A stretch of DNA of 42,238 nt from contig VFZL01000035.1 of NCBI GenBank assembly GCA_016871175.1, positions 1 through 42,238 on the forward strand, given 5' to 3'. This document shows positions 24,344 to 42,126 of the stretch, one piece after another; positions within the stretch are counted from its first letter, which is position 1; each line of letters starts with the position of its first letter. Made by a program: the position numbers and the translations under genes. This DNA comes from Acidimicrobiia bacterium (GTDB lineage Bacteria; Acidobacteriota; Vicinamibacteria; Vicinamibacterales; CAVVIG01). The notes beneath the pieces were generated by a model that did no database searches, was not told the DNA's origin, and saw only the letters and a list, made by a program, of their open reading frames with translations.

Positions 24344-24416
24344 TCCGAGGAGACCATGAGCCATCGACTTCTCGCACCCGTGAACCCGTGAAACCCGCGA
24401 GCTGCGAAGGTCCGCT

Positions 24417-25751: not shown

Positions 25752-25764
25752 GGGATGCGACGCC

Positions 25765-27252
25765 ATGCGAACGAGTAGCAGGTCCACGGGCGGGCAATGG
25801 GTCGCGTTCGCGCTGGCGCTCGCAGGCGCCTGTGTCGTGGTGATCGAGGCGAGCGCGACCGCTAGGGACTCGTCCTTGATCGACGCCGTTCGGGCGGGCG
25901 ATAAGGCTGTAGTTCGTTCGCTGTTGGAGCGGCGCGCCGACGTGAATCAACCGAGCGTCGACGGGACGACGCCGCTGCATTGGGCCGTTCGCGCCGGCGA
26001 TGACGAGCTCGTTCGGCTCCTCCTCGACGCCAACGCGAACGTGAAGGCCACCAACCGGTACGGCGTGACGCCCCTCTGGCTCGCGTGTCTCAACGGGCAG
26101 GGGCCCATCGTGCGTCGTCTTCTCTCGGCTGGCGCCGACCCGAATACCACGTCCACCGAAGGCGAAACGGTCCTCATGGTCGCCGCGCGCACGGGCGTCC
26201 TCGACGTGGTGTCGGCGCTCCTCGACCGCGGCGCCATCGTCGAGGCGCGCGAACGCTGGCGAGGCCAAACGGCCTTGATGTGGGCCGCCGCAGAAGGCCA
26301 CGCCGATGTGGTGCGCGCCCTCCTCACTCGAGGCGCCGACATCACCGCGCGTTCGAAGGGCGGCTTCACGCCCCTGCTGTTCGCGGTGCGCGAGGGTCGG
26401 CTGGCTGCGGCCCGCTCGCTCCTGGAGGCCGGCGCGTACGTGCACGACACGCTGCCGGCACCACACAAGCCCGAAGACTCGCGCGAGAAGACCTGGCCTC
26501 AGACGGGCGTCAACGCCCTGCTGCTCGCGGTCGGCAACGCGCACTACGAAGTGGCGGCGTTCCTCCTGGACAAGGGCGCCGATCCGAATGCTGCACCGCT
26601 CGGCTGGACCGCGCTCCACCAACTCACATGGGCGCGGAAGACTGGCATCGCCGGCTCGAATAATCCTCCGCCGCAAGGGTCCGGCGCCATGACCAGCTTG
26701 GAGTTCGCCCGCACGCTCGTCGCGAAAGGCGCGGACCTGAATGCTCGCGTGACGCGACGGCCGCCTGTCGGCGTCACCGGCCTCAACATGACCGGCGGCA
26801 CGCCGTTCCTCCTGGCCGCGCGCACAGCTGATGCGCCGTACATGCGGCTTCTGGCGGAGCTTGGGGCGGACCCGAAGCTGCCCAACGTCGATCAGTCGAC
26901 GCCACTCATGGTGGCGGCCGGGCTAGGCACCGCAGCGCCTGGCGAGGACCCTGGTACGGAGCCCGAGGTCCTCGAAGCCGTCAAGCTCGCCTTGGAGCTC
27001 GGCAATGACATCAACGCCAAGGACATCCGCGGCAACACCGCGATGCACGGCGCGGCGACCAAGCACGTGCCCTCGGTCGTCCGACATCTCGCGCAGGCCG
27101 GTGCCAACATGGAAGTCTGGAATCAAGGCAACGCGGACGGCCGAACGCCGTTGTCGATCACGCAAGGCGTCGTGTCGGGTATGAACATCGTGCGCTCGGC
27201 GATCACGGAGGCCGCCGTGCGCGAGGTGATGGGCGCCGCCGCACGGCCGTAG
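25765..27252 (+). CDS. secreted ankyrin-repeat protein
   Basis: The 495 residues begin with a hydrophobic leader (about 11-32, WVAFALALAGACVVVIEASATA) and then carry about nine to ten ankyrin repeats, for example TPLHWAVRAGDDELVRLLLDA, TPLWLACLNGQGPIVRRLLSAG, TALMWAAAEGHADVVRALLTRG and TPLMVAAGLGT. Repeats in the middle (about 225-330) are interrupted by longer loops. Ankyrin stacks bind partner proteins; an exported one so close to the DUF1552 gene (13 bp) suggests a scaffold or inhibitor for the neighbouring periplasmic enzymes. That role is inference. Confidence 0.88.
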   Translation: MRTSSRSTGGQWVAFALALAGACVVVIEASATARDSSLIDAVRAGDKAVVRSLLERRADVNQPSVDGTTPLHWAVRAGDDELVRLLLDANANVKATNRYGVTPLWLACLNGQGPIVRRLLSAGADPNTTSTEGETVLMVAARTGVLDVVSALLDRGAIVEARERWRGQTALMWAAAEGHADVVRALLTRGADITARSKGGFTPLLFAVREGRLAAARSLLEAGAYVHDTLPAPHKPEDSREKTWPQTGVNALLLAVGNAHYEVAAFLLDKGADPNAAPLGWTALHQLTWARKTGIAGSNNPPPQGSGAMTSLEFARTLVAKGADLNARVTRRPPVGVTGLNMTGGTPFLLAARTADAPYMRLLAELGADPKLPNVDQSTPLMVAAGLGTAAPGEDPGTEPEVLEAVKLALELGNDINAKDIRGNTAMHGAATKHVPSVVRHLAQAGANMEVWNQGNADGRTPLSITQGVVSGMNIVRSAITEAAVREVMGAAARP

Positions 27253-27305
27253 CCGCGAAGACCCGCTCGCGACGCAATCCCGGAGTGTTCGGGTCGAGGA
27301 TGGTG

Positions 27306-29369
27306 ATGGGTGTCGGTGCTGCCTGCCTTCTCACACCGTTCGCGACGCTGCTGTTCATCGCTCCACTGAGCGCCGCGGCGGTGGCGGCGCCAACCTTCAC
27401 AGCAGACGTCGCACCGTTGCTCGCGACACACTGCGTGACTTGTCACCGGCCGGACGGCGCCGCGCCGTTCTCCCTGCAAACCTTCGAGGAGGTGCGACCA
27501 CGCGCGCGGCAGGTGGCTTCTGCTCTTCGCCGTCGGACGATGCCGCCCTGGAAACCTGCGAATCCGCCCGGGACGTTCCTTGGCGAGCGACGACTGACCG
27601 ACGACGAGATTGCGGTAGTTCAACGATGGGTCGCGCGCGGCGCACCCGAAGGCGACGCGCGGGGTCGGTCTCGATTCGCCGCACCGCCTCTCGATTGGCA
27701 GCTGGGCACGCCGGATCTGGTGCTGCGCCTGCCGTCGCCGTACATGCTCGAGCCGAAGGGGCGCGAGCAAATGCGCAATGTCGTCTTCCCGGTGGGCCTC
27801 ACCGAGACTCGCTACGTCAAAGCGTGGGAGCTCAAGACCACGGCCCCGCGCGTCGTCCATCACGCGACCCTCGTGGTCGATTCGGCCGCGACGGCTCGAA
27901 GGCTCGACGCCGAGGATCCGGCGGTCGGTTATGAGGGGCTCCTCCCCTTGTCCGCGCAGAGCCCCGATGGCTACTTTCTCGGCTGGACACCCGGGCACCG
28001 TCCATCGGTCTCACGGTCGGACCTCGCGTGGCGGTTGATGCCCGGCAGCGATCTGGTGGCGCTGCTGCACCTTCGGCCAATCGAGCGGGCCGAGCGGGTG
28101 GACGTGCAAGTAGGCCTGTACTTCACGGACGCGCCGCCCTCACGCGTGCCGGCGATGATTCGGCTCAATCGACAGGATCTGGACATTCCCGCGAGTGACG
28201 CACAGTTCGTCGCTGTCGATCGCTACACGCTCCCGGTCGACGTCGAGCTGCACGCTGTCCAGCCGCACGCGCATTATCTCGCGCGTCGGATCCGCGGCGT
28301 CGCCAAGCTGCCCGACGGCCGAACGACGACGATCATCGATATTCCGCAGTGGGACTTTCACTGGCAGGACGCTTATCGGTTTCGCGAACCGATCGTGCTG
28401 CCCGCCGGAGCCGAGTTGCTGATGGAGTGGACGTTCGACAACTCGACGGCAAATCGCGCCAACCCGACTCAGCCGCCGCGTCGCGTCACCTACGGTCAGC
28501 GATCGACGGACGAGATGGCGGATCTCTGGCTGCAAGTCGTCCCGCGCGATCCTGCCGCGCTACCGAGTCTGGTCGCACACCTTCGCCGCAAGCTGCTGCC
28601 CCAGCACATCGTCGGTTACCGGATGATGATTCAAGCGGACCGGGACAACGCGGCATTACACGACGATCTGGCGCTTCTCCAGCTGGAGGCGGGCGACCTC
28701 GTCGCCGCGTCGGCGGAGTTCGCGGAGACGGTTCGCATTCGCCCGACGTCGGCCGCCGCGCGCTACAACCTTGGGAATGTGCTGCTGTTGCGCGGCCAGG
28801 CAACTGATGCCGAAGGTCATTTCCGGGCCTCCCTCGCACGCGATCCGACGTATGGCTTGGCTCACCAAGGGCTCGGACTGGCGCTGAGGGCTCAGGGACG
28901 GTTGACCGAGAGTCGGTCGGCGCTCGACGCCGCACTTCGGCTCCTGCCCGATGATGCCGACGTTAACTACAACGTGGGTGTCGTGCAGTCCGCGCTTGGT
29001 CGCTTTGGCCCCGCGATCGAGGCGTTCCGACGCGCGCTGGCCGCGCGTCCCCACTGGGGGGCCGCGCAGACCGAGCTGGCGTGGGCGCTCGCGGTTGCAC
29101 CCGACCCGACGCAGCGCAGCCCAATCGAGGCGCTCACCCTGGCGGAGCAGGCGGCGGCGGGGACACAGCTACTCGATCCGCATGTTCTGGACGTCCTCGC
29201 CGCGGCGCAGGCCGCCGTCGGCCGTTTCGACGCGGCCGCGGCGACGCTGCAAGCGGCGCTGAATGAGGCGACCAGACCAGAACAGGCATCCGGTCGGGCG
29301 GCGATGGCTGCACGGCTCCAACGTTATCAAGCCAGTCGACCGTTCGTGTGGCAGCCCCAAGAACCGTGA
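27306..29369 (+). CDS. heme-c / PHM-type copper monooxygenase with C-terminal TPRs
   Basis: ATG 27306 is chosen because GAGG lies 6 nt upstream; in-frame GTG 27285 and ATG 27300 are alternatives. After a signal peptide (about 1-28) the 687 residues hold a single heme c motif C43-V-T-C-H47. A copper type II monooxygenase module related to peptidylglycine alpha-hydroxylating monooxygenase (PHM) follows. Candidate copper ligands are H185-H186 (RVVHHATL), H254 (VALLHLRP), H320 and H322 (VQPHAHYLAR) and M403 (QRSTDEMADLWLQV), matching the order H107/H108, H172, H242/H244 and M314 of PHM. The C-terminus (about 440-670) has TPR repeats such as AAARYNLGNVLLLRGQ and YGLAHQGLGLALRAQGR. It is probably periplasmic, hydroxylating an unknown substrate with electrons from its own heme. 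Confidence 0.85.
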   Translation: MGVGAACLLTPFATLLFIAPLSAAAVAAPTFTADVAPLLATHCVTCHRPDGAAPFSLQTFEEVRPRARQVASALRRRTMPPWKPANPPGTFLGERRLTDDEIAVVQRWVARGAPEGDARGRSRFAAPPLDWQLGTPDLVLRLPSPYMLEPKGREQMRNVVFPVGLTETRYVKAWELKTTAPRVVHHATLVVDSAATARRLDAEDPAVGYEGLLPLSAQSPDGYFLGWTPGHRPSVSRSDLAWRLMPGSDLVALLHLRPIERAERVDVQVGLYFTDAPPSRVPAMIRLNRQDLDIPASDAQFVAVDRYTLPVDVELHAVQPHAHYLARRIRGVAKLPDGRTTTIIDIPQWDFHWQDAYRFREPIVLPAGAELLMEWTFDNSTANRANPTQPPRRVTYGQRSTDEMADLWLQVVPRDPAALPSLVAHLRRKLLPQHIVGYRMMIQADRDNAALHDDLALLQLEAGDLVAASAEFAETVRIRPTSAAARYNLGNVLLLRGQATDAEGHFRASLARDPTYGLAHQGLGLALRAQGRLTESRSALDAALRLLPDDADVNYNVGVVQSALGRFGPAIEAFRRALAARPHWGAAQTELAWALAVAPDPTQRSPIEALTLAEQAAAGTQLLDPHVLDVLAAAQAAVGRFDAAAATLQAALNEATRPEQASGRAAMAARLQRYQASRPFVWQPQEP

Positions 29370-29390
29370 GACGTCAGCGGTCGACCTCGC

Positions 29391-29396
29391 TATACT
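29391..29396 (+). promoter_or_regulatory. possible -10 box before the PQQ dehydrogenase gene
   Basis: TATACT lies about 47 nt before the ATG at 29443. A weak -35 (GAGACG, 29368-29373) sits 17 nt upstream. It could give the dehydrogenase its own transcript in addition to read-through. Confidence 0.3.
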
Positions 29397-29442
29397 GACG
29401 CGGGCACACACTGTGGCTGGGGTCACCATCTCTGGGGTCAGC

Positions 29443-31452
29443 ATGATGATGCGCGTCGTACTAGGTTCGGCGATTCTTGCGCTCTTGTCCTTCATGGCCG
29501 GTGTCGGCGGTCAGAGCGTATCAGCGACGCTGGGAGCGCAGGCACAGCCACCCGCCTCCGCACGTAACGTTGAATGGCGCTACTACGCCGGCGACTCGGG
29601 CAGCACCAAGTACTCGCCGCTCGACCAGATCACCAAGGAGAACGTCAAGGATCTCCGGATCGCGTGGCGATGGAAGGCAGACAACTTCGGCAGCAGCCCC
29701 GAGTTCAACCTGCAAGCGACTCCACTCATGATCAACGGCGTGTTGTACACCACCGCCGGCACCCGCCGGAACGTGGTCGCGATCGATGCGGCGACGGGTG
29801 AGACGCTGTGGATGTGGCGGTACGACGAAGGGCAGCGCGGCCTCGTGGCGCCGCGCAAGAATCACCGCGGCGTGGCGTACTGGACCGACGGCAAGGGCGA
29901 CGAGCGCATCCTGTACCTGACACCCGGCTACCGCCTCATCGCACTCGACGCAAAGACTGGACGGTCGATCCCCAGCTTCGGGACCAATGGCATGGTCGAT
30001 CTCTACGAAGGACTCGATCGTCCCGCGCCGGAGGACGGCACCATCGGCGCCAGCTCACCGCCGATGGTGGTTCGAGATACCGTCGTGGTCGGGGCGGCGA
30101 TGACCGCGTTCCCACGCAAGGTAGGCAATATCGCGGGTCACGTGCGCGGCTACGACGTGCGCACCGGTCGGCGGAAGTGGATCTTCCACACGATTCCCGC
30201 GCCAGGCGAGTTCGGCAATGACACGTGGGAGAACGATTCGTGGTCGGTGCAGGGCAACACCGCCGTATGGGCGCCCATGTCAGCGGACCAGGAATTGGGC
30301 TACGTTTACCTGCCCGTCGAAACCCCCACCAACGACTTCTACGGTGGTCATCGTCTCGGCAACAACCTGTTTGCCGAGTCGCTCGTCTGCCTCGACGCGA
30401 ACACCGGCAAGCGGATCTGGCACTACCAGCTCGTACACCACGGCGTGTGGGACTACGATACCGTGGCGCCGCCGATTCTCCTGGATCTCACGGTCAACGG
30501 CCGACGGATTCGGGCGGTGGCCCAAGTGACGAAGCAGGCGTTCACGTACGTCTTCGATCGCGTGACGGGCCAGCCGGTGTGGCCCATCGAAGAGCGGCCC
30601 GTGTATCCCTCTGAAGTGCCTGGCGAGCGGCTCTCGCCGACGCAGCCCTTCCCCACCAAACCACCGCCATTCGATCGTCAGGGTGTCTCGCTGGATGATC
30701 TGAATGATCTCACGCCGGAGCTCAAGGCTGAGGCGGTGAAGATGGTGTCGGAGTACAGGATCGGGCCGCTGTACACAGCACCGATCGTCGCTGGCACGAA
30801 CGGGCTGAAGGGCCTTCTCATGCTGCCAGCCGCCACCGGCGGCGCGAACTGGCAAGGCGGCGCAGCCGATCCCGAGACGGGTATGCTGTATGTCTCGTCA
30901 GGGACGCAAATCGGTCCGCTCGCGCTGGTGAACGACCCGAAGCGGTCTGAGCAGAACTACATCAGCGGCGGCGGTGGCGAAGGTGGTGGTGGGCCGCGCC
31001 CTGCCAACGCCGCACCGCGCGTGTTCGGACCGCAAGGGCTCCCCATGGCGAAACCACCATGGGGCCGCATCACGGCCATCGACTTGAACGCGGGCGAGAT
31101 CAAGTGGATGGTCCCGAACGGCGACGCACCGGAGTGGGTGAAGAGCCATTCGGCGCTGAAAGGCGTCCAGCTGCCCAAGACCGGCCGCTACGAGCACTCC
31201 GGCATCATCGTCACGAAGACGTTGGTGTTCGCCGGCGAGGGCTCCGGGCTCTTCGCGGTCCCACCCGGATCCGGTGGGCCGATGTTCCGTGCGTACGACA
31301 AGATGACCGGCGAGGTCATCCACGAATTCAAACTGCCGGCGAATCAGAGCGGCATCCCGATGACCTACATGGTCAACGGACGTCAGTTCATCGTCGTGGC
31401 CGTCGGCGCACAGGGAGTGCCAGCCGAGTTCGTCGCGCTCGCGGTGTCGTGA
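29443..31452 (+). CDS. secreted PQQ-dependent dehydrogenase
   Basis: An eight-bladed propeller quinoprotein that oxidises an alcohol, aldose or similar substrate in the periplasm. The ATG at 29443, first of three consecutive ATGs, follows a GGGG run and opens a signal peptide (about 1-25); the longer open frame upstream overlaps the previous gene and is not protein-like. The 669 residues carry YYAGDSGSTKYSPLDQI, several propeller W-motifs (AIDAATGETLWMWRYDEG, SLVCLDANTGKRIWHYQ) and the catalytic-Asp region HHGVWDYDTVAPP (D337/D339), as in glucose/quinate-type dehydrogenases. There is no heme c motif and no N-terminal membrane bundle, so it must pass electrons to a separate acceptor. A glycine-rich loop (GGGGEGGGG) interrupts a late blade. 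Confidence 0.88.
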   Translation: MMMRVVLGSAILALLSFMAGVGGQSVSATLGAQAQPPASARNVEWRYYAGDSGSTKYSPLDQITKENVKDLRIAWRWKADNFGSSPEFNLQATPLMINGVLYTTAGTRRNVVAIDAATGETLWMWRYDEGQRGLVAPRKNHRGVAYWTDGKGDERILYLTPGYRLIALDAKTGRSIPSFGTNGMVDLYEGLDRPAPEDGTIGASSPPMVVRDTVVVGAAMTAFPRKVGNIAGHVRGYDVRTGRRKWIFHTIPAPGEFGNDTWENDSWSVQGNTAVWAPMSADQELGYVYLPVETPTNDFYGGHRLGNNLFAESLVCLDANTGKRIWHYQLVHHGVWDYDTVAPPILLDLTVNGRRIRAVAQVTKQAFTYVFDRVTGQPVWPIEERPVYPSEVPGERLSPTQPFPTKPPPFDRQGVSLDDLNDLTPELKAEAVKMVSEYRIGPLYTAPIVAGTNGLKGLLMLPAATGGANWQGGAADPETGMLYVSSGTQIGPLALVNDPKRSEQNYISGGGGEGGGGPRPANAAPRVFGPQGLPMAKPPWGRITAIDLNAGEIKWMVPNGDAPEWVKSHSALKGVQLPKTGRYEHSGIIVTKTLVFAGEGSGLFAVPPGSGGPMFRAYDKMTGEVIHEFKLPANQSGIPMTYMVNGRQFIVVAVGAQGVPAEFVALAVS

Positions 31453-31473
31453 CGGCCAGGACTGCTGTGCGAC

Positions 31474-31478
31474 GGAGG
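31474..31478 (+). promoter_or_regulatory. Shine-Dalgarno site deciding the TTG start of the E1 gene
   Basis: GGAGG lies 7 nt before TTG 31486. The alternative GTG at 31492 would leave 13 nt, which is too far. Confidence 0.6.
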
Positions 31479-31485
31479 ACAAGAC

Positions 31486-33843
31486 TTGTCGGTGACCACT
31501 GAGACGGCGAAGCGTCTCGACCTGCTGCGTGCGCTCGAACGGAAGAGCTTGTGGCTTGCGGTCTGGACCATCCACCAGGCTAACCAGGTTCGCCCCAAGC
31601 GGGATCATCTGAAGGTCGGCGGCCATCAGGCCTCGTCCGCGTCGGTGGCCACGCTGATGGCGGCGCTGTACTTCGAGGAGCTGACGCCTCATGATCGCGT
31701 CGCCGTCAAGCCTCACGCCAGCCCAGTCTTCCACGCCATTCAGTACCTGTTCGGACGGCAGTCGCTCGAGGCACTCCAGTCCTTCCGCGCGCTCGGCGGC
31801 GCCCAGGCCTACCCGTCGAGGACAAAAGATGCCGATGACGTGGACTTTTCTACGGGTTCGGTGGGCCTCGGTGTCGCGCTGACCAGTTTCTCCGCGCTCG
31901 TCCAGGACTACGTGCACACCCGGCAGCTCGCGAAGGCGCCTCGTGGACGGATGGTCGCGGTGGTCGGCGACGCGGAACTGGATGAAGGCAACGTCTACGA
32001 AGCGCTCCTGGAGGGCTGGAAGCACGACATCCGGAACGTCTGGTGGGTCATCGACTACAACCGCCAGAGTCTCGACGCGATCGTCTCCGATCGCCTGTTC
32101 CAGCGCCACGACACCATCTTCCGTGACATGGGCTGGCGCGTCGTCACGATGAAGTACGGCCGGAGGATGGAGGAGGCCTTCTCACGCCGCGGCGGCGATG
32201 CGCTCAAGTCATGGATCGACGAGTCCTCCAACGTGCTCTACTCCGCGTTGTCGTTTCAGGGTGGTCAGGCGTGGCGCGCGCAACTCACGTCGGATATTGG
32301 GACGGAGCCTGGGGTCGAAGCCTTGCTGTCGTCGTATGACGACGAGGCACTGCACGCGTTGATGACCAACCTCGGCGGCCACGATCTGGAAACGATTCTG
32401 TCCGCGTTTCGTCAAGTGAAGGACGATCAGCCGACGTGTTTCATCGGTTACACCATCAAGGGCTTCGGGCTCCCGTTTGCCGGGCACAAGGACAACCACG
32501 CCGGGATGATGACGGCCGATCAGATCGACACGCTGAAACGGCGATTCAACATCCAGGCTGGCCAGGAATGGGAACGCTTCGCGGGCCTGGAGGAGATGGC
32601 GTTCGAGCTCGAGGCGTATCTCGCAGCCGCACCGTTTGGACGACGTGTGGAGCGACGCCACACAGCGCCCGGGGTTGCCGTTCCTGCGCGCTTCGACGTG
32701 CCGGCTGGCGGACGGATGTCCACACAAGAGGCGTTCGGCCATGTGCTCGCGGGCATCGCGCGACAGCATCACGACTTGGCCGATCGGATCGTCACGACCG
32801 CGCCTGATGTCACCACGTCGACAAATCTCGGTCCGTGGGTGAATCGCCGCGGCATCTTTTCACATCAGGAGACGCCCCCCGCGCCACCGGCCGCGCAGAT
32901 CGCCTCGCCACAGCAATGGAGACTGACGCCGACCGGTCAACACGTGGAGCTCGGGATCGCTGAGAACAATTTGTTCTTGCTGCTCGCTGCGCTAGGGCTA
33001 TCGCACTCGCTCTTCGGTGCCCGGCTCCTGCCCGTGGGCACGGTGTACGACCCGTTCATCGCACGCGGCCTCGATGCCTTCACGTACGCGTGCTACCAGG
33101 ACGCGCGGTTCATTCTGGCCGGTACGCCGTCTGGTATTACGCTCGCGCCGGAGGGTGGGGCGCACCAGTCGATCTATACGCCACTCATCGGCATCGGCCA
33201 GCCTGGGCTGGCTTCCTATGAGCCCGCGCTCGTGGATGAGATGACGGAGATCCTCCGCTGGAGCTTCGAGCACATCCAGGCCGAAGATGGCGGCGCGGTG
33301 TATGTGCGCCTGTCGACGCGTCCGCTTCCGCAGGTGCAACGAGACATGACCGATGCGCTGCGGCACGACATCATCCAGGGCGGCTACTGGATCGTGCCAC
33401 CCGGCCCGGAAGCCGATCTCGCGATCGCGTGCACGGGAGCCGTGCTCCCCGAAGCCCTGGAGGCGCAGCGCGCGATTGCCGAGGAGCTTCCTGGTACCGG
33501 ATTGCTGGTCATCACGTCGTCAGCCCGCCTGCAACGGGACTGGGTACGGGGTCAGCGGATCGGGACCGTCCGCAAGCGGCGCTCGCACATCGAATCGCTC
33601 CTCCAGCCGCTTTCGCGATCGGCGGGGCTTGTCACCGTACTCGATGGTCACCCTTCGACGCTCACCTGGCTCGGCGCAGTCCGCGGGCATCGCAGCGTCA
33701 ATCTGGGCGTCGACAAGTTCGGACAATCAGGCGACATTCCGGATCTCTACCGGACCTACGGCATCGACACCGCAGCGATCATCGACGCCGCGGCACGCGC
33801 ACGTGTGATGACCTGCCTCTCGGAAACAGGCGATGGCCACTGA
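31486..33843 (+). CDS. aceE: pyruvate dehydrogenase E1 component, AceE-like
   Basis: A thiamine-diphosphate enzyme that decarboxylates pyruvate and acetylates the E2 lipoyl arm in the cytoplasm. The 785 residues form one chain containing both transketolase-type halves. The TPP-binding motif is G161-D-A-E-L-D-E followed by WWVIDYNRQ (N192). FIGYTIKGFGLPFAGHKDNHAG, LGIAENNLFLLLAALGLSH and TLAPEGGAHQSIYTPLIG are typical of homodimeric E1p. It is about 100 residues shorter than E. coli AceE. The start is TTG 31486 with GGAGG at good spacing. The gene overlaps the E2 gene by 11 bp, confirming that the two are coupled; E3 is not in the window. Another 2-oxo acid specificity is possible but less likely. 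Confidence 0.85.
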   Translation: MSVTTETAKRLDLLRALERKSLWLAVWTIHQANQVRPKRDHLKVGGHQASSASVATLMAALYFEELTPHDRVAVKPHASPVFHAIQYLFGRQSLEALQSFRALGGAQAYPSRTKDADDVDFSTGSVGLGVALTSFSALVQDYVHTRQLAKAPRGRMVAVVGDAELDEGNVYEALLEGWKHDIRNVWWVIDYNRQSLDAIVSDRLFQRHDTIFRDMGWRVVTMKYGRRMEEAFSRRGGDALKSWIDESSNVLYSALSFQGGQAWRAQLTSDIGTEPGVEALLSSYDDEALHALMTNLGGHDLETILSAFRQVKDDQPTCFIGYTIKGFGLPFAGHKDNHAGMMTADQIDTLKRRFNIQAGQEWERFAGLEEMAFELEAYLAAAPFGRRVERRHTAPGVAVPARFDVPAGGRMSTQEAFGHVLAGIARQHHDLADRIVTTAPDVTTSTNLGPWVNRRGIFSHQETPPAPPAAQIASPQQWRLTPTGQHVELGIAENNLFLLLAALGLSHSLFGARLLPVGTVYDPFIARGLDAFTYACYQDARFILAGTPSGITLAPEGGAHQSIYTPLIGIGQPGLASYEPALVDEMTEILRWSFEHIQAEDGGAVYVRLSTRPLPQVQRDMTDALRHDIIQGGYWIVPPGPEADLAIACTGAVLPEALEAQRAIAEELPGTGLLVITSSARLQRDWVRGQRIGTVRKRRSHIESLLQPLSRSAGLVTVLDGHPSTLTWLGAVRGHRSVNLGVDKFGQSGDIPDLYRTYGIDTAAIIDAAARARVMTCLSETGDGH

Positions 33844-35110
33844 AACGCCCGTCCGCCTGCCCGATCTCGGCACGGGTGTGCCCGCAGCCAAGCTGATCGC
33901 CTGGCTGAAGCGCGAAGGCGAGTCCGTGACGATCGGCGATCCGATCGCCGAACTCGAGACGGACAAGACGACCGTCGAGATTCCCGCTCCAGCAACAGGC
34001 GTGCTGACGCGGATCCTGGTGCCCGCTGGCACAGAAGAGGTGACGCTCGACGCGCTGCTCGCCTACATCGGCGAGGCGGGCGCGCCCACGGCCATCGTCT
34101 CCTCCGCGCCTGTCTTTGCGCCCGGTCCCGTCTCGACGTCGGCGTCCCCCGTCTCCCCACCCGGCGCCGAGGTCACGCCTGTCGATGTAGGTGCCACGAC
34201 CCAGCTAGCCGCAGGCCCGACGCCCCCGGCATCGCTTTTCGTCCAGCGCATGGCCGAGGCTGCCGGCCTCAGCCTCGGCCATGTGTCGGGCTCAGGCGCA
34301 CAAGGCCGCGTAACGCGGCTCGACCTCGAGGCCGCGATCGGCAGCGGGCCTCGGGCTGCTCGGCGGCCTGAGTCATCGGTCAGCTCCGCGTCGGCTCCGA
34401 CATCGACAATGCTCGCCGCTGCCCCTCCGGATCTCGGCCCGCCACAACCCCTGTCGGCGCTCCGCCGAGTGACCGGCGAGCGGCTCACGCTCGCGAAGCA
34501 GACCATTCCGCACTTCTACCTGCGGACCGAGTGCCACATGGACCATGTGGCGCACGCGCGGCGGGAGTTCAACGCGCGCAACGAAGCCCACCTATCGTTT
34601 ACGGCGCTCGTCGTGCGGGCCGCGGCCTTGGCGCTCCGAGACGTGCCGGCAGCGAACACGTGGTGGCTCGACGGAAAAGTCCGTGCGTGCGCCTCCGTGG
34701 ACGTGGCGGTCGCGGTGATGACGTCGGCAGGACTGATCGCGCCGGTTGTCCGACGCGCAGACGAGCGCTCGGTGGCCGCCACGGCTCAGGAACTGGATGC
34801 CCTCGCTGCGCGGGCGCGGGCCGGCAAGCTGTTGCCCGACGAGTACGCGAACGGATCGTGCACAGTCTCAAACCTCGGGATGTACGGGGTGACGGGGCTG
34901 TACCCCATCATCAATCCCCCCCAGACATGCATCCTCGGCGTAGGTGCTGTCGAGGAGCGCGCCATCGCCAAAGACGGCGCCGTCGTCGCCGGTCTCATGA
35001 TGACGGCGACCCTGTCCGCCGATCATCGGGCGATTGATGGCGCTGCTGGTGCCGAGTTCCTCGCTGCGTTCAAACGACGTATCGAGGATCCGTGGCGCTT
35101 GGCGTTCTGA
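33833..35110 (+). CDS. dihydrolipoamide acyltransferase, E2 of the 2-oxo acid dehydrogenase complex
   Basis: The core acyltransferase that moves the acetyl group from the lipoyl arm to CoA. The 425 residues show one lipoyl domain (about 4-78) with the modified lysine K45 in ELETDKTTVEI, an Ala/Pro/Val linker, a peripheral subunit-binding domain (VQRMAEAAGLSLGHVSGSGAQGRV split over about 136-165) and the catalytic domain. The active-site H398 and D402 are in SADHRAIDGA. A Pro/Ala-rich second linker follows the binding domain. The ATG at 33833 lies inside the end of the E1 gene, so translation is coupled. With an AceE-type E1 upstream it is probably the acetyltransferase of a pyruvate dehydrogenase. 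Confidence 0.92.
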   Translation: MATETPVRLPDLGTGVPAAKLIAWLKREGESVTIGDPIAELETDKTTVEIPAPATGVLTRILVPAGTEEVTLDALLAYIGEAGAPTAIVSSAPVFAPGPVSTSASPVSPPGAEVTPVDVGATTQLAAGPTPPASLFVQRMAEAAGLSLGHVSGSGAQGRVTRLDLEAAIGSGPRAARRPESSVSSASAPTSTMLAAAPPDLGPPQPLSALRRVTGERLTLAKQTIPHFYLRTECHMDHVAHARREFNARNEAHLSFTALVVRAAALALRDVPAANTWWLDGKVRACASVDVAVAVMTSAGLIAPVVRRADERSVAATAQELDALAARARAGKLLPDEYANGSCTVSNLGMYGVTGLYPIINPPQTCILGVGAVEERAIAKDGAVVAGLMMTATLSADHRAIDGAAGAEFLAAFKRRIEDPWRLAF

Positions 35111-35528: not shown

Positions 35529-38426
35529 TCAGTAGTTCATCCGGATCCCAAATCGCAGCAGCCGGCCTGGCAGAATCGTCAACGGTTGACCGACTGACGC
35601 GCCCCAGGTGGTGACCTGGTTCGTCACGGGCGATACGTTGAATGCGTTGAACAGGTCCAGCTGGGGCTTCAGGACAACCCGACCGACCTTGAAGTCCCGG
35701 GTCAAGCTGATGTCGAGCTGATTGTTCCGATCGAGGAACTCCGTCCCGGGTTCGTTCAGACGCGTCGTCACCTGAGCAAGGGTCAGCGACGGCACAATCG
35801 CGCGATTCACGATGTAGTTGATCACGACGTCGCCGTCGTTGTTGGCCGTTCTGGTCTCGAGGACGCCGGGCATGCTTTGAAACACAGCACTCAAACGGAA
35901 CGCGTACGGCAGCGGGTACGTACCTGTGAGCTTGAACTGTGTCCTGAACGGCTGTTCCGCTTCGCAGCCGCGCCGCATGTTCGGATCCGGCACATCGCAG
36001 GTCACGGCCCGAAGCCTGCCAGTGGACGTACCGCCCAAGAGCGTCGCGCCGTTTCTGAGCCTGGCGTTGAAGGTGATGTCAAAGCCGTTGTAGGTTCGGC
36101 TGTTGTTCGGGGAGTTGGTGTCGAACTCGTTCACCAATCCAGCGAACTGCGGCCTGACGTTGTAGATGGTGACCGCCTGTCCGGTACCCCTTGGATCGGC
36201 GACCGTGACGGGAACGTACGCCTCGTCCCATCTGGCGACAGGCACAGCCAGATTCTCGGTCCAGATGATTCGGTAGTAGTCGCGCCGGTAGTAGTAGAAC
36301 GACACCGATGTCGACGAACCGATCTGGTGCTGAACGCCCGCGTTGTACAGAACCTGGTACGGGCGCTTGATGTCGGGGTCGGGATTGCGGTTGCGGCGGA
36401 TGCCGAACGTCGCGTTCGTGGGAGGGCCGATTTCGTTCTCCTGCGCGATGTCATCGCCGTTGGCGTCACGCCAGGTCCGGATGTCCGTCGACAGGATGCT
36501 CGGGTTGTACGTGTTCGAGAAGCCGGTTGCTTCCTGCTGTGTGTACTTGCCGACGCTTCCCTTGAGCGCCGTCCGTCCGTCGCCGAACAGGTCGTAGGCT
36601 GCGCCGAAGCGCGGCGAGATATCGGTCCAGTTCGGCAGGTTCGGGATCGCGTCGAAGCGCCGCGCTGGAACGAAGCGGCCGGCGGGCAGATCTACCGCCT
36701 CCGTCGATCCGCGCAGCCGCTCGTACCGAACGCCGGGGTTCAACGTCAACCGGTTGAGCCGCCACGAATCCTGAACGTAAATCCCGATGTCGAAATCCAG
36801 ATTGGATTGCTGGATATAGGGCGTGTTCGAGATCGTCACCGAGTCGGATGTCCACACGCCAGGCACGAACAGGTTGCCGAACGTCGCCGCCGTGCTGCGA
36901 TACCGTTGCACCAGATCCGCGTTCTTCGCCGAGGACCCGTTGCGATTGTACCCATGCTGGAAGGTGAACCCCGCCTTCAGGGCGTGGCTCCCGGTCACGT
37001 ACGACAGCGCGGACATCACGCCGTCCTTCCACAGCCGATTCCATGTGACGTTCTGCGACGCCACATCGGTGATGCCCGTCGTGATGTTGAAGTGTGAGAT
37101 GTCCCCGTAGTTCGTCCCGGGCGCACATGCCGCGGCAGCAGTGAAGCACGTCGCGGGCGCCACCTCGGGCTGGTACTTCGAGTTGTAGTAGTACGGGAAG
37201 ATGATCCCGGCCGCCTCGAACAGCAGCCGATTGGACAACGTGGACGTCCACTTCAATTGGCTGATGTGCGCCTGCACGATGTCGAGAATCCCCGCGCCGT
37301 AGGGTGTCTGCAGGCCCGTCTCGATCCCGGAGTGGCGACGGATGCGGGGATAGCGGTTCCAAGAGAAATTGATGCGATCGCGCTCCGATGGTCGGAACGT
37401 CAAGCGCGTGCTGTACGCCTGGACGGTGTTGTCGTCGATCCCGGGCCGGCCGTCGCGGTAGAAGATGTTGCCCACCTGGTTGTTATAGGCCCAATCGCGA
37501 AACGAACCGAAGAACCAGATGCGATCTCTTTTGACCGGCCCGCCGATGGTGGGGTTCACGTCCCACAGCCTGTCCAGCCGCCCAGGCGACCGGTAGTTGC
37601 GGCGGACGAGGTCGTCTGTGAGATTGCTCGACTGAAAGCGCGTGGAAGACAAGAGGATCGTCGCGTCCCCCTTGAACTCGTTGCCGCCGACTTTCGGGAT
37701 CATGTTGATCCTGACGCCGCCCGTCTGGCTCTCCGCGGGTCCACCGGCCACCTGGTAGACCATCTCCTGGAACTCACCGTCGTTGTGGTACACCAGCGGA
37801 AACCAGCCGCGGTCGAGCGTGCCCATCACGTTCAGGCCGTCGACTTCCATCGCCAGGTCAGTCCCTGTCCCGCCGTAGACGACGAGCACGCCCTGTTGCA
37901 TCGCGTTGGACCCGGCCACGTCGAAGCGACCCATGCTCAGCGCCGGCAGCGTCGCGCCGATCCCTTGGAAGCTGCGTCCGGTCGGCAGCGCGTCCAGCAG
38001 GTCTCGCGAGAGCACCTCGCGCTTCGCCGTGGTCTGCACGTCGACCAGCGGCGAGGCGCCGGTGACCGTGATGCTCTCCTCCATCGAGCCGACCTGTAGG
38101 TCCGCGTTGACCGTCGCGGTGAAGTTCGCCTCGATCACCAGCCCGTCGCGCTTGACAGCTTGGAAGCCCGACAGCTCGAACACCACCTCGTACGTGCCAG
38201 GGCGCAGGTCGACGATGCGGTATTGGCCGGAGGCATCCGTGACGCTGGCCTTCGATCGTTCGATCAGCGCCGGGCTGGATGCTGTCACCGTGACGCCGGG
38301 CAGAACGGCGCCACTCGAGTCGCGAACGACGCCGGCGACCGCGCTCTGCGCGAGGGTCGCGATGGGAGAGCCGAGGACACAGGCCGCCACAAGCAGCCCG
38401 CGCGCTGCGATTCGTCGACGTCGCAT
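35529..38426 (-). CDS. TonB-dependent outer-membrane receptor with carboxypeptidase-regulatory N-terminal domain (Oar-like)
   Basis: An outer-membrane beta-barrel that imports or binds a large ligand with TonB energy. The ATG at 38426 has GGGAGGCGGAG upstream. The 965 residues begin with a signal peptide (about 1-26, ending ATLAQ). A carboxypeptidase-regulatory-like beta domain follows (about 28-112; GVVRDSSGAVLPGVTVTASS, GQYRIVDLRPGTYEVVFEL), then a plug (SITVTGASPLVDVQTT; SQTGGVRINMIPKVGGNEFKG) and a long barrel ending in aromatic-rich strands and RFGIRMNY. It is last in the minus-strand set, 10 bp after the PAL-like gene, so it probably handles the substrate or product of that system. Ligand is unknown. 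Confidence 0.92.
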   Translation of the reverse strand: MRRRRIAARGLLVAACVLGSPIATLAQSAVAGVVRDSSGAVLPGVTVTASSPALIERSKASVTDASGQYRIVDLRPGTYEVVFELSGFQAVKRDGLVIEANFTATVNADLQVGSMEESITVTGASPLVDVQTTAKREVLSRDLLDALPTGRSFQGIGATLPALSMGRFDVAGSNAMQQGVLVVYGGTGTDLAMEVDGLNVMGTLDRGWFPLVYHNDGEFQEMVYQVAGGPAESQTGGVRINMIPKVGGNEFKGDATILLSSTRFQSSNLTDDLVRRNYRSPGRLDRLWDVNPTIGGPVKRDRIWFFGSFRDWAYNNQVGNIFYRDGRPGIDDNTVQAYSTRLTFRPSERDRINFSWNRYPRIRRHSGIETGLQTPYGAGILDIVQAHISQLKWTSTLSNRLLFEAAGIIFPYYYNSKYQPEVAPATCFTAAAACAPGTNYGDISHFNITTGITDVASQNVTWNRLWKDGVMSALSYVTGSHALKAGFTFQHGYNRNGSSAKNADLVQRYRSTAATFGNLFVPGVWTSDSVTISNTPYIQQSNLDFDIGIYVQDSWRLNRLTLNPGVRYERLRGSTEAVDLPAGRFVPARRFDAIPNLPNWTDISPRFGAAYDLFGDGRTALKGSVGKYTQQEATGFSNTYNPSILSTDIRTWRDANGDDIAQENEIGPPTNATFGIRRNRNPDPDIKRPYQVLYNAGVQHQIGSSTSVSFYYYRRDYYRIIWTENLAVPVARWDEAYVPVTVADPRGTGQAVTIYNVRPQFAGLVNEFDTNSPNNSRTYNGFDITFNARLRNGATLLGGTSTGRLRAVTCDVPDPNMRRGCEAEQPFRTQFKLTGTYPLPYAFRLSAVFQSMPGVLETRTANNDGDVVINYIVNRAIVPSLTLAQVTTRLNEPGTEFLDRNNQLDISLTRDFKVGRVVLKPQLDLFNAFNVSPVTNQVTTWGASVGQPLTILPGRLLRFGIRMNY

Positions 38427-38436
38427 CTCCGCCTCC

Positions 38437-39585
38437 CTACTGTCCGCGAGAGGATCGGTGCACCGTGCCCGGCTTCAGCAGGAACCGCTGGACGCGCCAG
38501 TTGAGCAGCTCGCCAATCCAGAGCTCGTTCTCGGCGACGCACGCGATCGCGTGCACCCAGCCGAACTGGCCGACCTTGCGCCCGGCCGTGCCGAACTGGC
38601 CGACGACCTTGCCGTCCAGCGTGATCTTCTGGATCTGCCCGGGGAACATCGAGTTCGCGTAGATGTACTGTGGCTCACCGGGCGTGATGCACAGCGTGTT
38701 CGGCCAGAGCGTGTTGTGCCTGCCGTCCGCTCGCTTGCCGAAGTCTGGAATCGGCGAGACATAACCAGCCGGCTGGGGCGGGTCGTATTTGATCTCGCGC
38801 ACGTAGTTGAGATCGTTGTCGAGGACCTGAATGCGCGCGTTCGAGCGGTCGGCGACGTAGACCAGGCCCTTGGCGTCGACGGCGATGCCGTGCGGCGTGC
38901 TGAACTGCCCTGGCGCGCTGCCCCTCGCCCCTCCGGCCATCTTGACGATGTGGCCGTCCTTGTCGAACTTGTGCACAACCGAGTTCTGGTACCCGTCGCT
39001 GATGAAGATGTTGCCTTGCGCGTCGAACGCGACGTCGGTCGGTTCGTAGAAGTACCCGGTCCGCGGCGCAGGCGGCGGGTTGCCGGGATTCATGCCCACG
39101 CGCCGCACGCGCTCCTGCACCGGCTCGTTGCGGCGACCGAGAATCAACTTCACACGGTAGTCCGGCCCGAGCTTCACGACTTCGTCGGTGCCGTTGTCGA
39201 CGAGCCAGATGTTGTCCTCCCTGTCCACCCGAACCGCGTGGGCCCATCCCTTCGAGTAGAGGTTCTTCCCAATCTCCTTGAGGAAGGTGCCGTCGGGATT
39301 GAACTCAAAGATTCGCGCCGACGTTGGCTCGAGGATCGTCTGGCCGTTGTCGGCAGCGGTCCGCGTGTACACGAAGATGTGCTTCTTGGAGTTGAGGGCG
39401 ACGCCGGCGATTTCGCCGAGATAGAGGTCCGGCGGCATCTTCAGCATGTCTTGCGCGTCGAACGCGATGTCGGGCGCAGGCGTTGCCGGTTGCTGCGCGC
39501 GAACGCCGCCGCACAACAGGACCACGCCGGCGAGGAGCGCGAGGAGAATCATCTTGACCGGCTTGGTGAGGGTGGCAGGCGTCAC
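38437..39585 (-). CDS. NHL-propeller protein resembling peptidyl-alpha-hydroxyglycine alpha-amidating lyase (PAL)
   Basis: The start is GTG 39585, with GGAGG 5 nt upstream, in preference to the longer frame from 39609. A signal peptide (about 1-31, ending GGVRA) precedes a six-bladed NHL propeller in 382 residues. Segments EPTDVAFDAQG, FISDGYQNSVV, GQFSTPHGIAV, VADRSNARIQV and YVREIKY align by eye with rat PAL. The zinc ligands H585, H690 and H786 correspond to H116 (GWAHAVRVD), H232 (TPHGIAV) and H345 (GWVHAIA). Catalytic R533, Y654 and R706 correspond to R75 (FVYTRT), Y199 (SDGYQN) and R247 (ADRSN). PAL cleaves a hydroxylated glycine to an amide and glyoxylate. Whether this protein uses peptides is unknown. 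It lies between a PHM-containing operon partner and the receptor gene. Confidence 0.85.
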   Translation of the reverse strand: MTPATLTKPVKMILLALLAGVVLLCGGVRAQQPATPAPDIAFDAQDMLKMPPDLYLGEIAGVALNSKKHIFVYTRTAADNGQTILEPTSARIFEFNPDGTFLKEIGKNLYSKGWAHAVRVDREDNIWLVDNGTDEVVKLGPDYRVKLILGRRNEPVQERVRRVGMNPGNPPPAPRTGYFYEPTDVAFDAQGNIFISDGYQNSVVHKFDKDGHIVKMAGGARGSAPGQFSTPHGIAVDAKGLVYVADRSNARIQVLDNDLNYVREIKYDPPQPAGYVSPIPDFGKRADGRHNTLWPNTLCITPGEPQYIYANSMFPGQIQKITLDGKVVGQFGTAGRKVGQFGWVHAIACVAENELWIGELLNWRVQRFLLKPGTVHRSSRGQ

Positions 39586-39625
39586 AGATACCTCCAGGAT
39601 TGAGGTCACGGCGAGACTTCACTCA

Positions 39626-39644
39626 CGCGGCGCAAACCGCCGCG
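39626..39644. other. strong intergenic hairpin in the gap before the PAL-like gene
   Basis: CGCGGCG (39626-39632) and CGCCGCG (39638-39644) form a perfect 7-bp GC stem with a 5-nt loop. It lies in the 118-bp gap between the unknown secreted protein gene and the PAL-like gene. No U-tract follows on the coding strand. It may act in RNA processing or partial termination and so set the ratio of upstream to downstream products. Confidence 0.5.
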
Positions 39645-39703
39645 AGCAGGGAACGCATGAGACGTGGCGAAACGAAAGGGGCGCTGACCGCGCGGGCGGC
39701 CCA

Positions 39704-40513
39704 TTACTTCACCGTTACCGTGATGTCGTACGGCGTCTCAAGCAGGCCATCGAAGAGGACCGCTCGCACAATGTAGCTTCCAGGCGACGCGAACACCGCC
39801 TGGGTCTTCTCGTCGATGGGCTTGCCGTGGACTGGCGTGCTGGACTCAGGCGTGAAGGTCACCTTGCCGGCCCCTCGATAGTGGAACCACCGCACACGGA
39901 GCCCCTGCGCGGCTGGCGGCGTCGTCGCGCCCGGTCGCGGCTTCCGCGGCCTCGGAATGCCGTCGTCGCTGGCCTGCACCGACAGCGTCAGCGGGTTGTT
40001 GATCCCCGCCGTCATGTCCTTGCTCCCGCTCGTCACCTTCGGGTGCTGATTCGGCGGGTTGGTCGGCGGCGCTCCACCTCCGCCAAGGTTCATCTGAATG
40101 ACGCCATCATCCACTTCCCACTCGGGCTGCAACCAACCGTTCGCCGTCTCGGTCTTGCCGTTGACGGTCACGATCCACTGCAGTCGCCGCGTCTTGTCCC
40201 AGTCTCTGGGAACGCTCACCGAGAAGACGAACTCGTGGCGGCGTGTGTAGAAGTGGGTGGGTTGGTTGCGATCGGCGGGACCCGGCTCGAACCGATTATT
40301 GGGCCCGACGGGAATGTCGAGCTGGTCTCCATAGTTCCGATTCAGGTAGCCGAAAAAGAACTTGTAGCTGCCATCCTCGTTGCGTTGCCAGCCCTCGAAC
40401 ACGGGCACGAGGTTCTGGCCCGACTGGTACTGGATGTCCTGAGCGCCGGCGCTCGCGTTGGACAGAGCCAACGCGAGCGCACACGCCACCACTCCAACGA
40501 CCGACCGGTTCAT
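39704..40513 (-). CDS. secreted protein of unknown function in the PHM/PAL-like operon
   Basis: The 269 residues start at ATG 40513, 19 bp after the stop of the heme-c/PHM gene. A signal peptide (about 1-24, ending NASAGAQ) is followed by a beta-rich domain: LVPVFEGWQRNEDGSYKFFFGYLNRNYGDQL, then RHEFVFSVSVPRDWDKTRRLQW. The C-terminal half, from about 160, looks Ig- or PKD-like (NPLTLSVQASDDG, GSYIVRAVLFDGLLETPYDITVTV). Cysteine is absent after the signal peptide; aromatic and Asn residues are frequent in the first half. Similar proteins occur near heme-c or copper proteins in Acidobacteriota, to my recollection, but no function is known. It may be an accessory subunit or substrate-binding protein. 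Confidence 0.75.
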   Translation of the reverse strand: MNRSVVGVVACALALALSNASAGAQDIQYQSGQNLVPVFEGWQRNEDGSYKFFFGYLNRNYGDQLDIPVGPNNRFEPGPADRNQPTHFYTRRHEFVFSVSVPRDWDKTRRLQWIVTVNGKTETANGWLQPEWEVDDGVIQMNLGGGGAPPTNPPNQHPKVTSGSKDMTAGINNPLTLSVQASDDGIPRPRKPRPGATTPPAAQGLRVRWFHYRGAGKVTFTPESSTPVHGKPIDEKTQAVFASPGSYIVRAVLFDGLLETPYDITVTVK

Positions 40514-40532
40514 CGCCGCCCTCTCGTCGTAA

Positions 40533-41852
40533 CTACTGCTGCTGGTTCTGCGTGGCCGCCTGCGTCTTGCGCTGCCGCTCGGCCACCATCTCCTTGTACT
40601 GATCCTCGGTCAGCTCGTACCACGTCATCCAGGCGAACGCCATATCGTCAATGGAACGCTGCCCGAAACCGGCCCAGTTCGACGGGTCTGGGTTGAACTT
40701 GTTGGCGGACGTGTTGTCGTGCCACGAGGTGACCTTCAGCATCGTGCCTGCCGGCAAGAGCGGCTGATCGTCCGGCGTGTAGTGGTAGACAATGTGCCAA
40801 TTGAATCGATAGCGATTCACGCAGCTGATCGTCTGCGTCTTCGCGATGCCGGGGCGAATGCCGGCGCCCGGGATAATGGCCTCGACGCACTGGGCCTTGC
40901 CGCGGTTGTGCAGGTGTGGTTGGAAGGAGGTCAGGCGTACCGGCTTTGTGAGGACCGTGTAGCCCTCGGACCGCGCGTTCGCATCGCCCGGCGCGATATC
41001 GAGATCCTCGTTGTCGCCGACGTGTGTCACAGTCTCGACGAACGTCGGCTTGTAGCCTTCGGGATACAGCTTGATGCCGACGACGACGTTGGCCGGAATC
41101 TCCTCGCCGATAGAGTGCAGGTGGAGATTCATCGAGAGCTTGGAGTTCGCTCGAAGCACGCGCGCCGCCCCGTCCGGGTAGATGTCGCCGAACTTGCCGA
41201 CGGCGTACTCGACGAGCAGGGTCTTCGAGATCTCGGGATCGTCTTCGAGGTAAGTGCTGGCCACGGCGTGGTGCACGACCGAAGGGCCCTTCGACGGCTT
41301 AACTTCGACGGCCTTGATATAGCGATCCTTGGGGATGTCGACGTGGGTCATGTCCACGTCCATCCACTGATCAGCAGCGGCCGCCTTGACGATCACGTCC
41401 TTCGGCAATGTGGCGATGATGTCGGGTTCACCAATGTGCCAGCGATCGCTGTCGTCGAACTTGCGCGGCGGCGGCATGTCGGCTGGGTTGCCCCGCGGCG
41501 CTCCGGCGTCCACCCATTTGACGATGGTGTCAATCTCGGCATCGCTCAGCGACGGATCTGGATCGAACTTCTTCACGCCGACGTTTCGATCGATGTACCA
41601 CGGTGGCATCTCGCGCTCAGCCACCTTGACACGGATCGACCGCGCCCACGGACGTGCTTCCTCGTACGTCAGCAACGACATCGGCGCGATGTTGTTCGGC
41701 CGATGGCATGCCTGACACGCCCTCTGAAGAATCGGTGCGACATCCTTGGCGAAGGTGACTTGAGGCTTGGCCTGCGCGACAGCCACGCTCGACGCTCCTA
41801 CCAGGCCGGCGCATACGAACGCGGCGATTCCGCCCCACTTGGAACCATTCAT
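40533..41852 (-). CDS. heme-c / PHM-type copper monooxygenase
   Basis: The ATG at 41852 is chosen because AGGAGG lies 8 nt upstream; an in-frame ATG at 41870 would place that site inside the gene. After a signal peptide (about 1-27) the 439 residues hold a single heme c motif C46-Q-A-C-H50, followed by MSLLTYEEARPWA and EMPPWY typical of this cytochrome-like module. A PHM-like copper domain follows. Candidate ligands are H194-H195 (SVVHHAVAS), H244/H246 (MNLHLHSIG), H313 and H315 (SFQPHLHNRGK) and M404 (RSIDDMAFAWMTWYEL), in the PHM order for CuH and CuM. The C-terminus is Gln/Lys-rich and has no TPRs, unlike the paralogue at 27306-29369. First gene of a four-gene set; predicted to hydroxylate the substrate that the PAL-like enzyme then cleaves. 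Confidence 0.87.
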   Translation of the reverse strand: MNGSKWGGIAAFVCAGLVGASSVAVAQAKPQVTFAKDVAPILQRACQACHRPNNIAPMSLLTYEEARPWARSIRVKVAEREMPPWYIDRNVGVKKFDPDPSLSDAEIDTIVKWVDAGAPRGNPADMPPPRKFDDSDRWHIGEPDIIATLPKDVIVKAAAADQWMDVDMTHVDIPKDRYIKAVEVKPSKGPSVVHHAVASTYLEDDPEISKTLLVEYAVGKFGDIYPDGAARVLRANSKLSMNLHLHSIGEEIPANVVVGIKLYPEGYKPTFVETVTHVGDNEDLDIAPGDANARSEGYTVLTKPVRLTSFQPHLHNRGKAQCVEAIIPGAGIRPGIAKTQTISCVNRYRFNWHIVYHYTPDDQPLLPAGTMLKVTSWHDNTSANKFNPDPSNWAGFGQRSIDDMAFAWMTWYELTEDQYKEMVAERQRKTQAATQNQQQ

Positions 41853-42126
41853 CGGGCTGTCCTCCTGCATGGCCGAGTCATTCCTACGGGTAGCCTGATA
41901 AGCATCTCACAAGTATCCGCCGCGCGACAGCCCTGTTTGATGGGTTTCGGGAGGAATGGGAGCCTGAACAGTCGAGTCCAGAAATACCTACAATCAGTTA
42001 TATGCGGCGGCATGGCCCGATGGTTGGGAGAACCGCCGCGCGCGGCTTCTCAAGGGCTGACATGGGTGTCGGAACCGGGGGATGTCCCGCCCGCTGTTGA
42101 AACTCGGCGGCGGCTCGGTTGAGATT
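41853..42126. other. intergenic region between the PHM operon and the right-edge gene fragment
   Basis: No gene is supported here. The part next to 41852 should hold the operon promoter, but no clear -35/-10 pair is seen. The right part would lie outside the end of any insertion sequence carrying the 42127-42238 fragment; no terminal inverted repeat could be identified. Confidence 0.4.

Follow-up and report, generated by a model that had tools for sequence, protein, structure and literature searches.

The 42,238-base window analysed here is the complete contig VFZL01000035.1 of an Acidobacteriota genome (4.44 Mb, 97 percent complete). Near one end, it encodes a predicted exported copper hydroxylase of the PHM type with a fused cytochrome c domain, followed by a smaller protein that we call MID. 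Our analyses indicate that these two genes probably form the core of the system, an exported cytochrome c-PHM dicopper hydroxylase with a dedicated exported partner made of tandem immunoglobulin (Ig) domains, and that a PAL-type lyase step is not part of this core. The original prediction for this DNA was a split PAM-like system, in which the PHM-type enzyme and a PAL-like lyase encoded downstream act in sequence. The two core genes are the following.

40533..41870, minus strand: PHM-like protein, 445 amino acids, predicted to be exported, with an N-terminal c-type heme domain and a PHM/DBH-type dicopper monooxygenase core
39704..40513, minus strand: MID, 269 amino acids, predicted to be exported, modelled as two Ig-like beta-sandwich domains

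An AlphaFold2 model of the PHM-like protein (28 sequences, mean pLDDT 83) was compared with solved structures. Foldseek ranks 1-31 were all PHM or DBH, with a best E of 1.1e-11. VIA-align gave Z scores of 19.4 for DBH and 16.6-19.0 for PHM chains over 226-262 residues, and the first fold outside PHM/DBH was PNGase at Z 8.7, which is itself described in a passage of PMC8812541 as a fold relative of PHM. Sequence identity in the structural alignments to PHM/DBH is 11-13 percent. Pfam returned weak cytochrome c and haem-binding matches alone for the 445-residue protein, with no match to PF03712 at E 0.1. Two PHM paralogs of the same genome exceed the PF03712 cut-off of 23 bits (24.7 and 24.2), which suggests a link of the PHM group to the copper monooxygenase C-terminal domain by sequence as well.

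The six copper-ligand positions (H200, H201, H250, H319, H321 and M410) follow the PHM order, and each is kept in at least 50 of the 51 aligned rows, one of which is the window protein; the ligands are assigned as alignment positions, not as metal-site geometry. The rat PHM and human DBH ligands used for comparison are those given in parts of PMC6123673 and PMC4846438. The proposed heme and copper sites map to the window as listed here.

41703..41717, minus strand: CxxCH heme c motif, amino acids 52-56 (50/51 rows; the remaining row is gapped and lacks its N-terminus)
41607..41609, minus strand: Met88 of the MPPW motif, putative sixth heme ligand (51/51 rows)
41268..41273, minus strand: His200-His201, proposed CuH ligands (rat H107 and H108; 50/51 rows each)
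41121..41123, minus strand: His250, proposed CuH ligand (rat H172; 51/51 rows)
40908..40916, minus strand: His319-x-His321, proposed CuM ligands (rat H242 and H244; 50/51 rows each)
40641..40643, minus strand: Met410, proposed CuM ligand (rat M314; 50/51 rows)

Taken together, the modelled PHM/DBH fold, the conserved ligand positions and the CxxCH motif with its candidate Met ligand place the window protein in the PHM/DBH fold family, as a member with a fused c-heme domain. In this respect the original prediction held: the structure prediction gave the PHM/DBH double jelly-roll, the protein has all six copper-ligand positions of a PHM-type monooxygenase, and the fusion to heme c was borne out as a motif.

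The conserved unit is PHM with MID, not PHM with PAL. The genome contains about 30 PHM places (43 matches merged) and 18 MID places (22 matches merged), and each of the 18 MID places has a PHM place no more than about 350 bp away. This soil-type bacterium has about 30 predicted exported heme-fused copper hydroxylases, most of them paired with MID. We also fetched 23 named loci by PHM alone, all from acidobacterial metagenome bins. MID directly follows PHM in 21 of them; the exceptions are L037 and L038, and in the latter MID comes after a second PHM copy. Across all loci, some of which share a genome and in which identical proteins were counted once, MID was detected within 1.5 kb of 70 of the 96 distinct PHM genes versus 2 of 52 PAL-centred controls (Fisher p 2e-17), a control set that includes tandem copies from one locus. 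In one control locus, L189, the PAL pair is itself next to MID and PHM. Neighbouring genes were called with a simple codon-usage open reading frame (ORF) caller that overlooked five or more MID copies recovered by tblastn (L022, L024, L027, L035 and L039), so the MID neighbour counts, including 70/96, are on the low side. The wide searches scored at most 4 or 30 candidates per genome.

The PHM-MID gap is 19 bp in the window and has a median of 16 bp over 57 same-strand downstream pairs; in some loci, MID is upstream of PHM instead. A relative encodes the two as a single in-frame ORF of 755 amino acids (L157:5052-7319, in G003:C79), joined by a linker and without sign of a second signal peptide; this fusion is consistent with a physical pair. 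PHM matches at E 1e-20 were found in 9/11 genomes, a set mostly chosen for having a PAL match. We also observed, at C6:50817-52091 in the window's own genome, a PHM paralog with three in-frame stops and an adjoining MID copy, which is either a decayed gene or an assembly error.

Pfam and NCBIfam searches with MID gave nothing at E 0.1 or better. Its AlphaFold2 model (pLDDT 76, pTM 0.52) consists of two beta-sandwiches, and residues from about 155 to 269 match Ig/PKD folds with Z scores of 9-11. The N-terminal domain is less certain, as the structure matches are dominated by the C-terminal Ig domain. In a sample of 80 genomes from across the phylum, a MID profile applied at E 1e-25 matched in 3 (16, 20 and 1 matches), suggesting a narrow presence with strong amplification. 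This cut-off is strict, however, and a MID with 30 percent identity is present in the genome G270.

If the hydroxylase is loaded with copper and heme and is active, the His-His-Met copper (CuM) would be the site of O2 activation, and the three-His copper (CuH) would take up electrons. DBH receives two electrons from ascorbate according to a section of PMC4846438, and a c-type cytochrome domain has been shown, in a section of PMC8981238, to reduce bacterial lytic polysaccharide monooxygenases (LPMOs). By analogy, the fused c-heme would be the obvious electron donor to the copper core, replacing ascorbate and relaying electrons from periplasmic donors. MID may bind the hydroxylase, its substrate or both. 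The approximately 30 PHM copies are located beside different genes, so each copy probably has its own substrate and would oxidise a different small molecule that is exported or imported.

Several observations weigh against this interpretation of the PHM-MID pair. Sequence and profile searches detected no match to the copper core among solved PHM structures, and the two profile matches obtained among solved structures are heme segments; the assignment is therefore carried by the fold and the six motif positions. The heme region of the model is of low confidence around residues 54-56 and 61-63. MID contains no conserved His, Cys or internal Met, which makes its role a guess. It is also absent beside most TPR-type PHM paralogs and several short ones (among them L083, L088, L089, L090 and L095); two TPR-type PHMs, in L073 and L202, do have an adjoining MID. 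Finally, PQQ dehydrogenases, which could supply the electrons, show no clear enrichment near PHM.

The window proteins share both folds and the metal-ligand positions with PHM and PAL, as would be expected for a true animal-like alpha-amidation of glycine-extended peptides. However, we consider this very improbable. The residue corresponding to rat Arg240, which we take to bind the peptide carboxylate, is Gln317; 39 of the 51 PHM rows have Gln at this position and a single row has Arg. Rat Asn316 and Tyr318, presumably also carboxylate holders, correspond to Phe412 and Trp414 in a motif alignment made by eye. These replacements argue against glycine-extended peptides, and about 30 PHM places per genome fit poorly with a single peptide; this candidate substrate of the original prediction is accordingly disfavoured. 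The substituted carboxylate site, together with the approximately 30 PHM copies, would point to many different substrates. Ig/PKD-like folds often act as binding modules, and this counts for another alternative, in which PHM-MID is an LPMO-like oxidase that attacks polymers with MID as its binding module. The predicted export agrees with this, as does a c-heme feed of the kind described for LPMOs in a section of PMC8981238. We regard it as unlikely, as Pfam and NCBIfam revealed no carbohydrate-binding family in MID, and the ten annotated representatives of neighbour clusters include no carbohydrate-active family.

Behind MID, the same strand carries two further genes.

38437..39609, minus strand (39585 is the likelier start): PAL-like NHL propeller, predicted to be exported, matching Pfam NHL
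35529..38426, minus strand: Oar-like outer-membrane receptor, matching PF25183 at E 4.7e-38 (OMP_b-brl_4) and PF13620 at E 1.5e-16 (CarboxypepD_reg)

ORF analysis confirmed the four minus-strand genes of the original prediction (c-heme/PHM-type protein, MID, PAL-like NHL propeller and Oar-like receptor). The PHM-like ORF, 40533-41870, begins 18 bp upstream of the start proposed earlier, and the gene is 368 bases from the contig end, so that the contig stops before further upstream genes. The PAL-like ORF has two in-frame GTG starts, 39609 and 39585, and the second is likelier because GGAGG is directly upstream of it. The MID-PAL gap is 94 or 118 bp depending on this start and the PAL-receptor gap is 10 bp; the predicted spacing of 19, 118 and 10 bp is thus recovered with the start at 39585. 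All four proteins have signal-peptide-like N-termini as judged by eye, again in line with the prediction, and the CarboxypepD_reg and OMP_b-brl_4 domains agree with an Oar-like receptor.

Homology makes the PAL-like protein a true relative of PAL: the PAL of PAM (3fvz) is matched in one long collinear stretch (residues 59-277, E 4.6e-21). The family profile matches the PAL of PAM over 295 positions (E 2.8e-33), while the NHL proteins that score higher are matched over shorter stretches of repeats. The positions R83, H124, Y207, H240, R255 and H353, counted from the start at 39609, are all present. R83 was matched to rat R533 in a printed but weak local alignment, and the other assignments follow from collinear homology and from what we take to be the rat numbering (Arg533, Tyr654 and Arg706). 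A search with the C-terminal piece of the PAL-like protein gave hits that did not include PAM. We aligned 51 of 55 PAL rows, dropping four that were cut or short. All three Zn-His positions are kept in 40 of the 51, R83 in 43, Y207 in 42 and R255 in 40; in each of the other 11 rows, at least two of the three Zn His are gone. The residue after H353 is Ala354, where rat PAL presumably has Asp787 beside its last Zn His, and this position is variable among the rows (Q 12, A 11, E 10, G 9, S 7). The earlier matching of zinc and catalytic residues stands for the three His, Arg, Tyr and Arg; the Asp at the Asp787 position is not kept. In ten loci (L027, L099, L172, L174, L177, L178, L179, L180, L188 and L189), a PAL copy depleted of Zn His adjoins an intact one, and such tandems are perhaps heterodimers.

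The linkage of PHM and PAL is sporadic, and its excess over chance is weak. A close PAL (200 bits or more) was found within 6 kb of 3 of the 96 distinct PHM genes, one of them being the window and one having its PAL on the opposite strand; at a looser 100 bits the count is 5/96. We also profiled the linkage from the PAL side in 39 of 40 regions from relatives (the remaining region gave no PAL call at 190 bits), with expected counts based on the PHM density from loose candidate counts. PHM occurs within 6 kb in 4 of these 39 loci versus 1.57 expected (P 0.075), on the same strand in 3 versus 0.79 (P 0.045), within 9 kb in 5 versus 2.09 (P 0.06) and within 1 kb in 0 versus 0.32. One of ten further PAL loci has a PHM within 6 kb. 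On the phylogenetic tree, the PAL-linked PHMs (window, L189, L027, L243 and L156) require 5 label changes, compared with a mean of 4.9 for shuffled labels; the fusion PHM in L157, which has a PAL on the other strand, was not labelled as PAL-linked. With 3/96 PHMs, a weak excess and a scattered distribution on the tree, we rejected PHM-PAL as a conserved pair in the sense of a rule. Of the split PAM-like system, the PHM fold, the heme motif, the PAL homology, the receptor and the probable export stand, but regular PHM-PAL linkage does not, and the conserved neighbourhood of the two genes was mostly not found in relatives.

For the window locus itself, two readings of the PAL gene have to be weighed. 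In the first, which we rate as less likely than not, a PAM-like two-step pathway operates: PHM would hydroxylate the alpha carbon of an N-acylglycine or N-alkyl compound, PAL would cleave the carbinol, and the receptor would import the substrate or the product. More generally, if the neighbours cooperate, hydroxylation next to a heteroatom would be followed by cleavage by a PAL-type Zn lyase. The tight same-strand spacing of the four genes and the retained R, three His, Y and R positions of PAL are consistent with this pathway. PAL and PHM are also neighbours in L189 (in the order PAL, pseudo-PAL, MID, PHM) and L027, and in L243, from another family of the phylum, the best PHM is about 0.9 kb from the best PAL match on the same strand. 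A run in G010:C71 contains the best PAL match outside the genome (73-76 percent identity), a close receptor match and a TPR-type PHM. However, the low frequency of PAL near PHM argues against a pathway, the five PAL-linked rows need as many changes on the tree, and the closest tree neighbours of the window PHM (L021, L022 and L023) are without PAL, L021 ending just after MID. Given a weak excess together with recurrence in separate lineages, we retain a PHM-then-PAL reaction in the window locus as a minority possibility.

The second reading, plausible though short of probable, is that PAL and the receptor are an independent unit that was placed behind PHM-MID by rearrangement and acts on unrelated substrates. 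G010:C71 has PAL next to the receptor but no PHM-MID pair, the four closest PAL paralogs of the window's genome are more than 20 kb from a PHM match or on a PHM-free contig, and in relatives 44 of the 49 PAL loci lack a PHM at a distance of 6 kb or less. The TPR-type PHM two genes away in G010:C71 is less easily reconciled with independence, as are the separate PHM-PAL neighbours in L189, L027 and L243.

We examined which other genes accompany PHM. TonB receptors occur near 30/96 PHM versus 6/52 PAL genes (p 0.009), a difference that we treat as weak, being one of counts uncorrected for family abundance. Multiheme cytochromes occur near 7/96 PHM versus 0/52 PAL genes (p 0.10; L075:4912-6831 and similar loci). 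A PQQ dehydrogenase as a regular electron source or product handler was rejected (28/96 near PHM versus 8/52 near PAL, p 0.07). Cluster c5 (for example L024:6610-7371), a protein of 253 amino acids with no Pfam match, was found near 18/96 PHM genes and also near 7/52 PAL genes. The window itself contains a second heme-PHM gene, of the TPR type, that the original prediction did not mention.

27285..29369, plus strand: second heme-PHM paralog with C-terminal TPR repeats, PF03712 at 17.2 bits (below the 23-bit cut-off), no adjoining MID

This gene is part of a second run (21929-35110, plus strand), which also includes a PQQ alcohol-dehydrogenase-type protein, a DUF1592-type cytochrome, a DUF1552 protein, an ankyrin protein, a transketolase/E1-like protein and an E2 acyltransferase.

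Parts of PMC4846438 and PMC8812541 present the PHM/DBH enzymes as eukaryotic and DBH as driven by ascorbate. Among the matches listed in the open-licence literature, with subscription papers and preprints outside the scope of the search, we recognised no paper on bacterial c-heme-PHM proteins. What appears to be new is a heme-fused bacterial form of the PHM/DBH kind of enzyme, as modelled here, and a partner family without a Pfam or NCBIfam match, both with predicted functions. If this is correct, the approximately 30 heme-fused copies with a dedicated partner would offer C-H hydroxylases that bring their own electron supply, and the fused one-electron donor would allow electron transfer between the two distant coppers to be examined. 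MID, rather than PAL, is the first partner gene to examine. More speculatively, Acidobacteriota may possess a large modular class of extracytoplasmic, cytochrome-driven dicopper hydroxylases, made of c-heme-PHM and a new tandem-Ig partner and active on many small molecules, each with its own follow-up enzyme; some lineages, the present one among them, would have independently joined theirs to a PAL-type lyase, giving an oxidative N-dealkylation route that parallels animal amidation.

Compared with known systems, the window PHM shares with rat PHM and human DBH the double jelly-roll fold and the order and identity of the six copper ligands. It differs in being bacterial, in having a fused c-heme motif in place of the DBH DOMON domain, in presumably using this heme instead of ascorbate, in its separate Ig partner and in the Gln at the rat Arg240 position. 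The PAL-like protein shares with the PAL domain of rat PAM (3fvz) a collinear NHL propeller and the R, three His, Y and R positions, but here it is a separate protein with Ala at what we take to be Asp787, and its family often occurs in tandem with a copy lacking the Zn-ligand positions. As in bifunctional PAM, PHM-type and PAL-type proteins are encoded side by side in the window, yet they are unfused and not regularly linked, with MID between them and probably another electron feed. Cytochrome-fed bacterial LPMOs (CjX183 of Cbp2D, as presented in a section of PMC8981238) likewise combine a c-type heme donor, a role that is putative here, with an exported copper monooxygenase, whereas the window protein carries its heme domain and a dicopper PHM fold in one chain.

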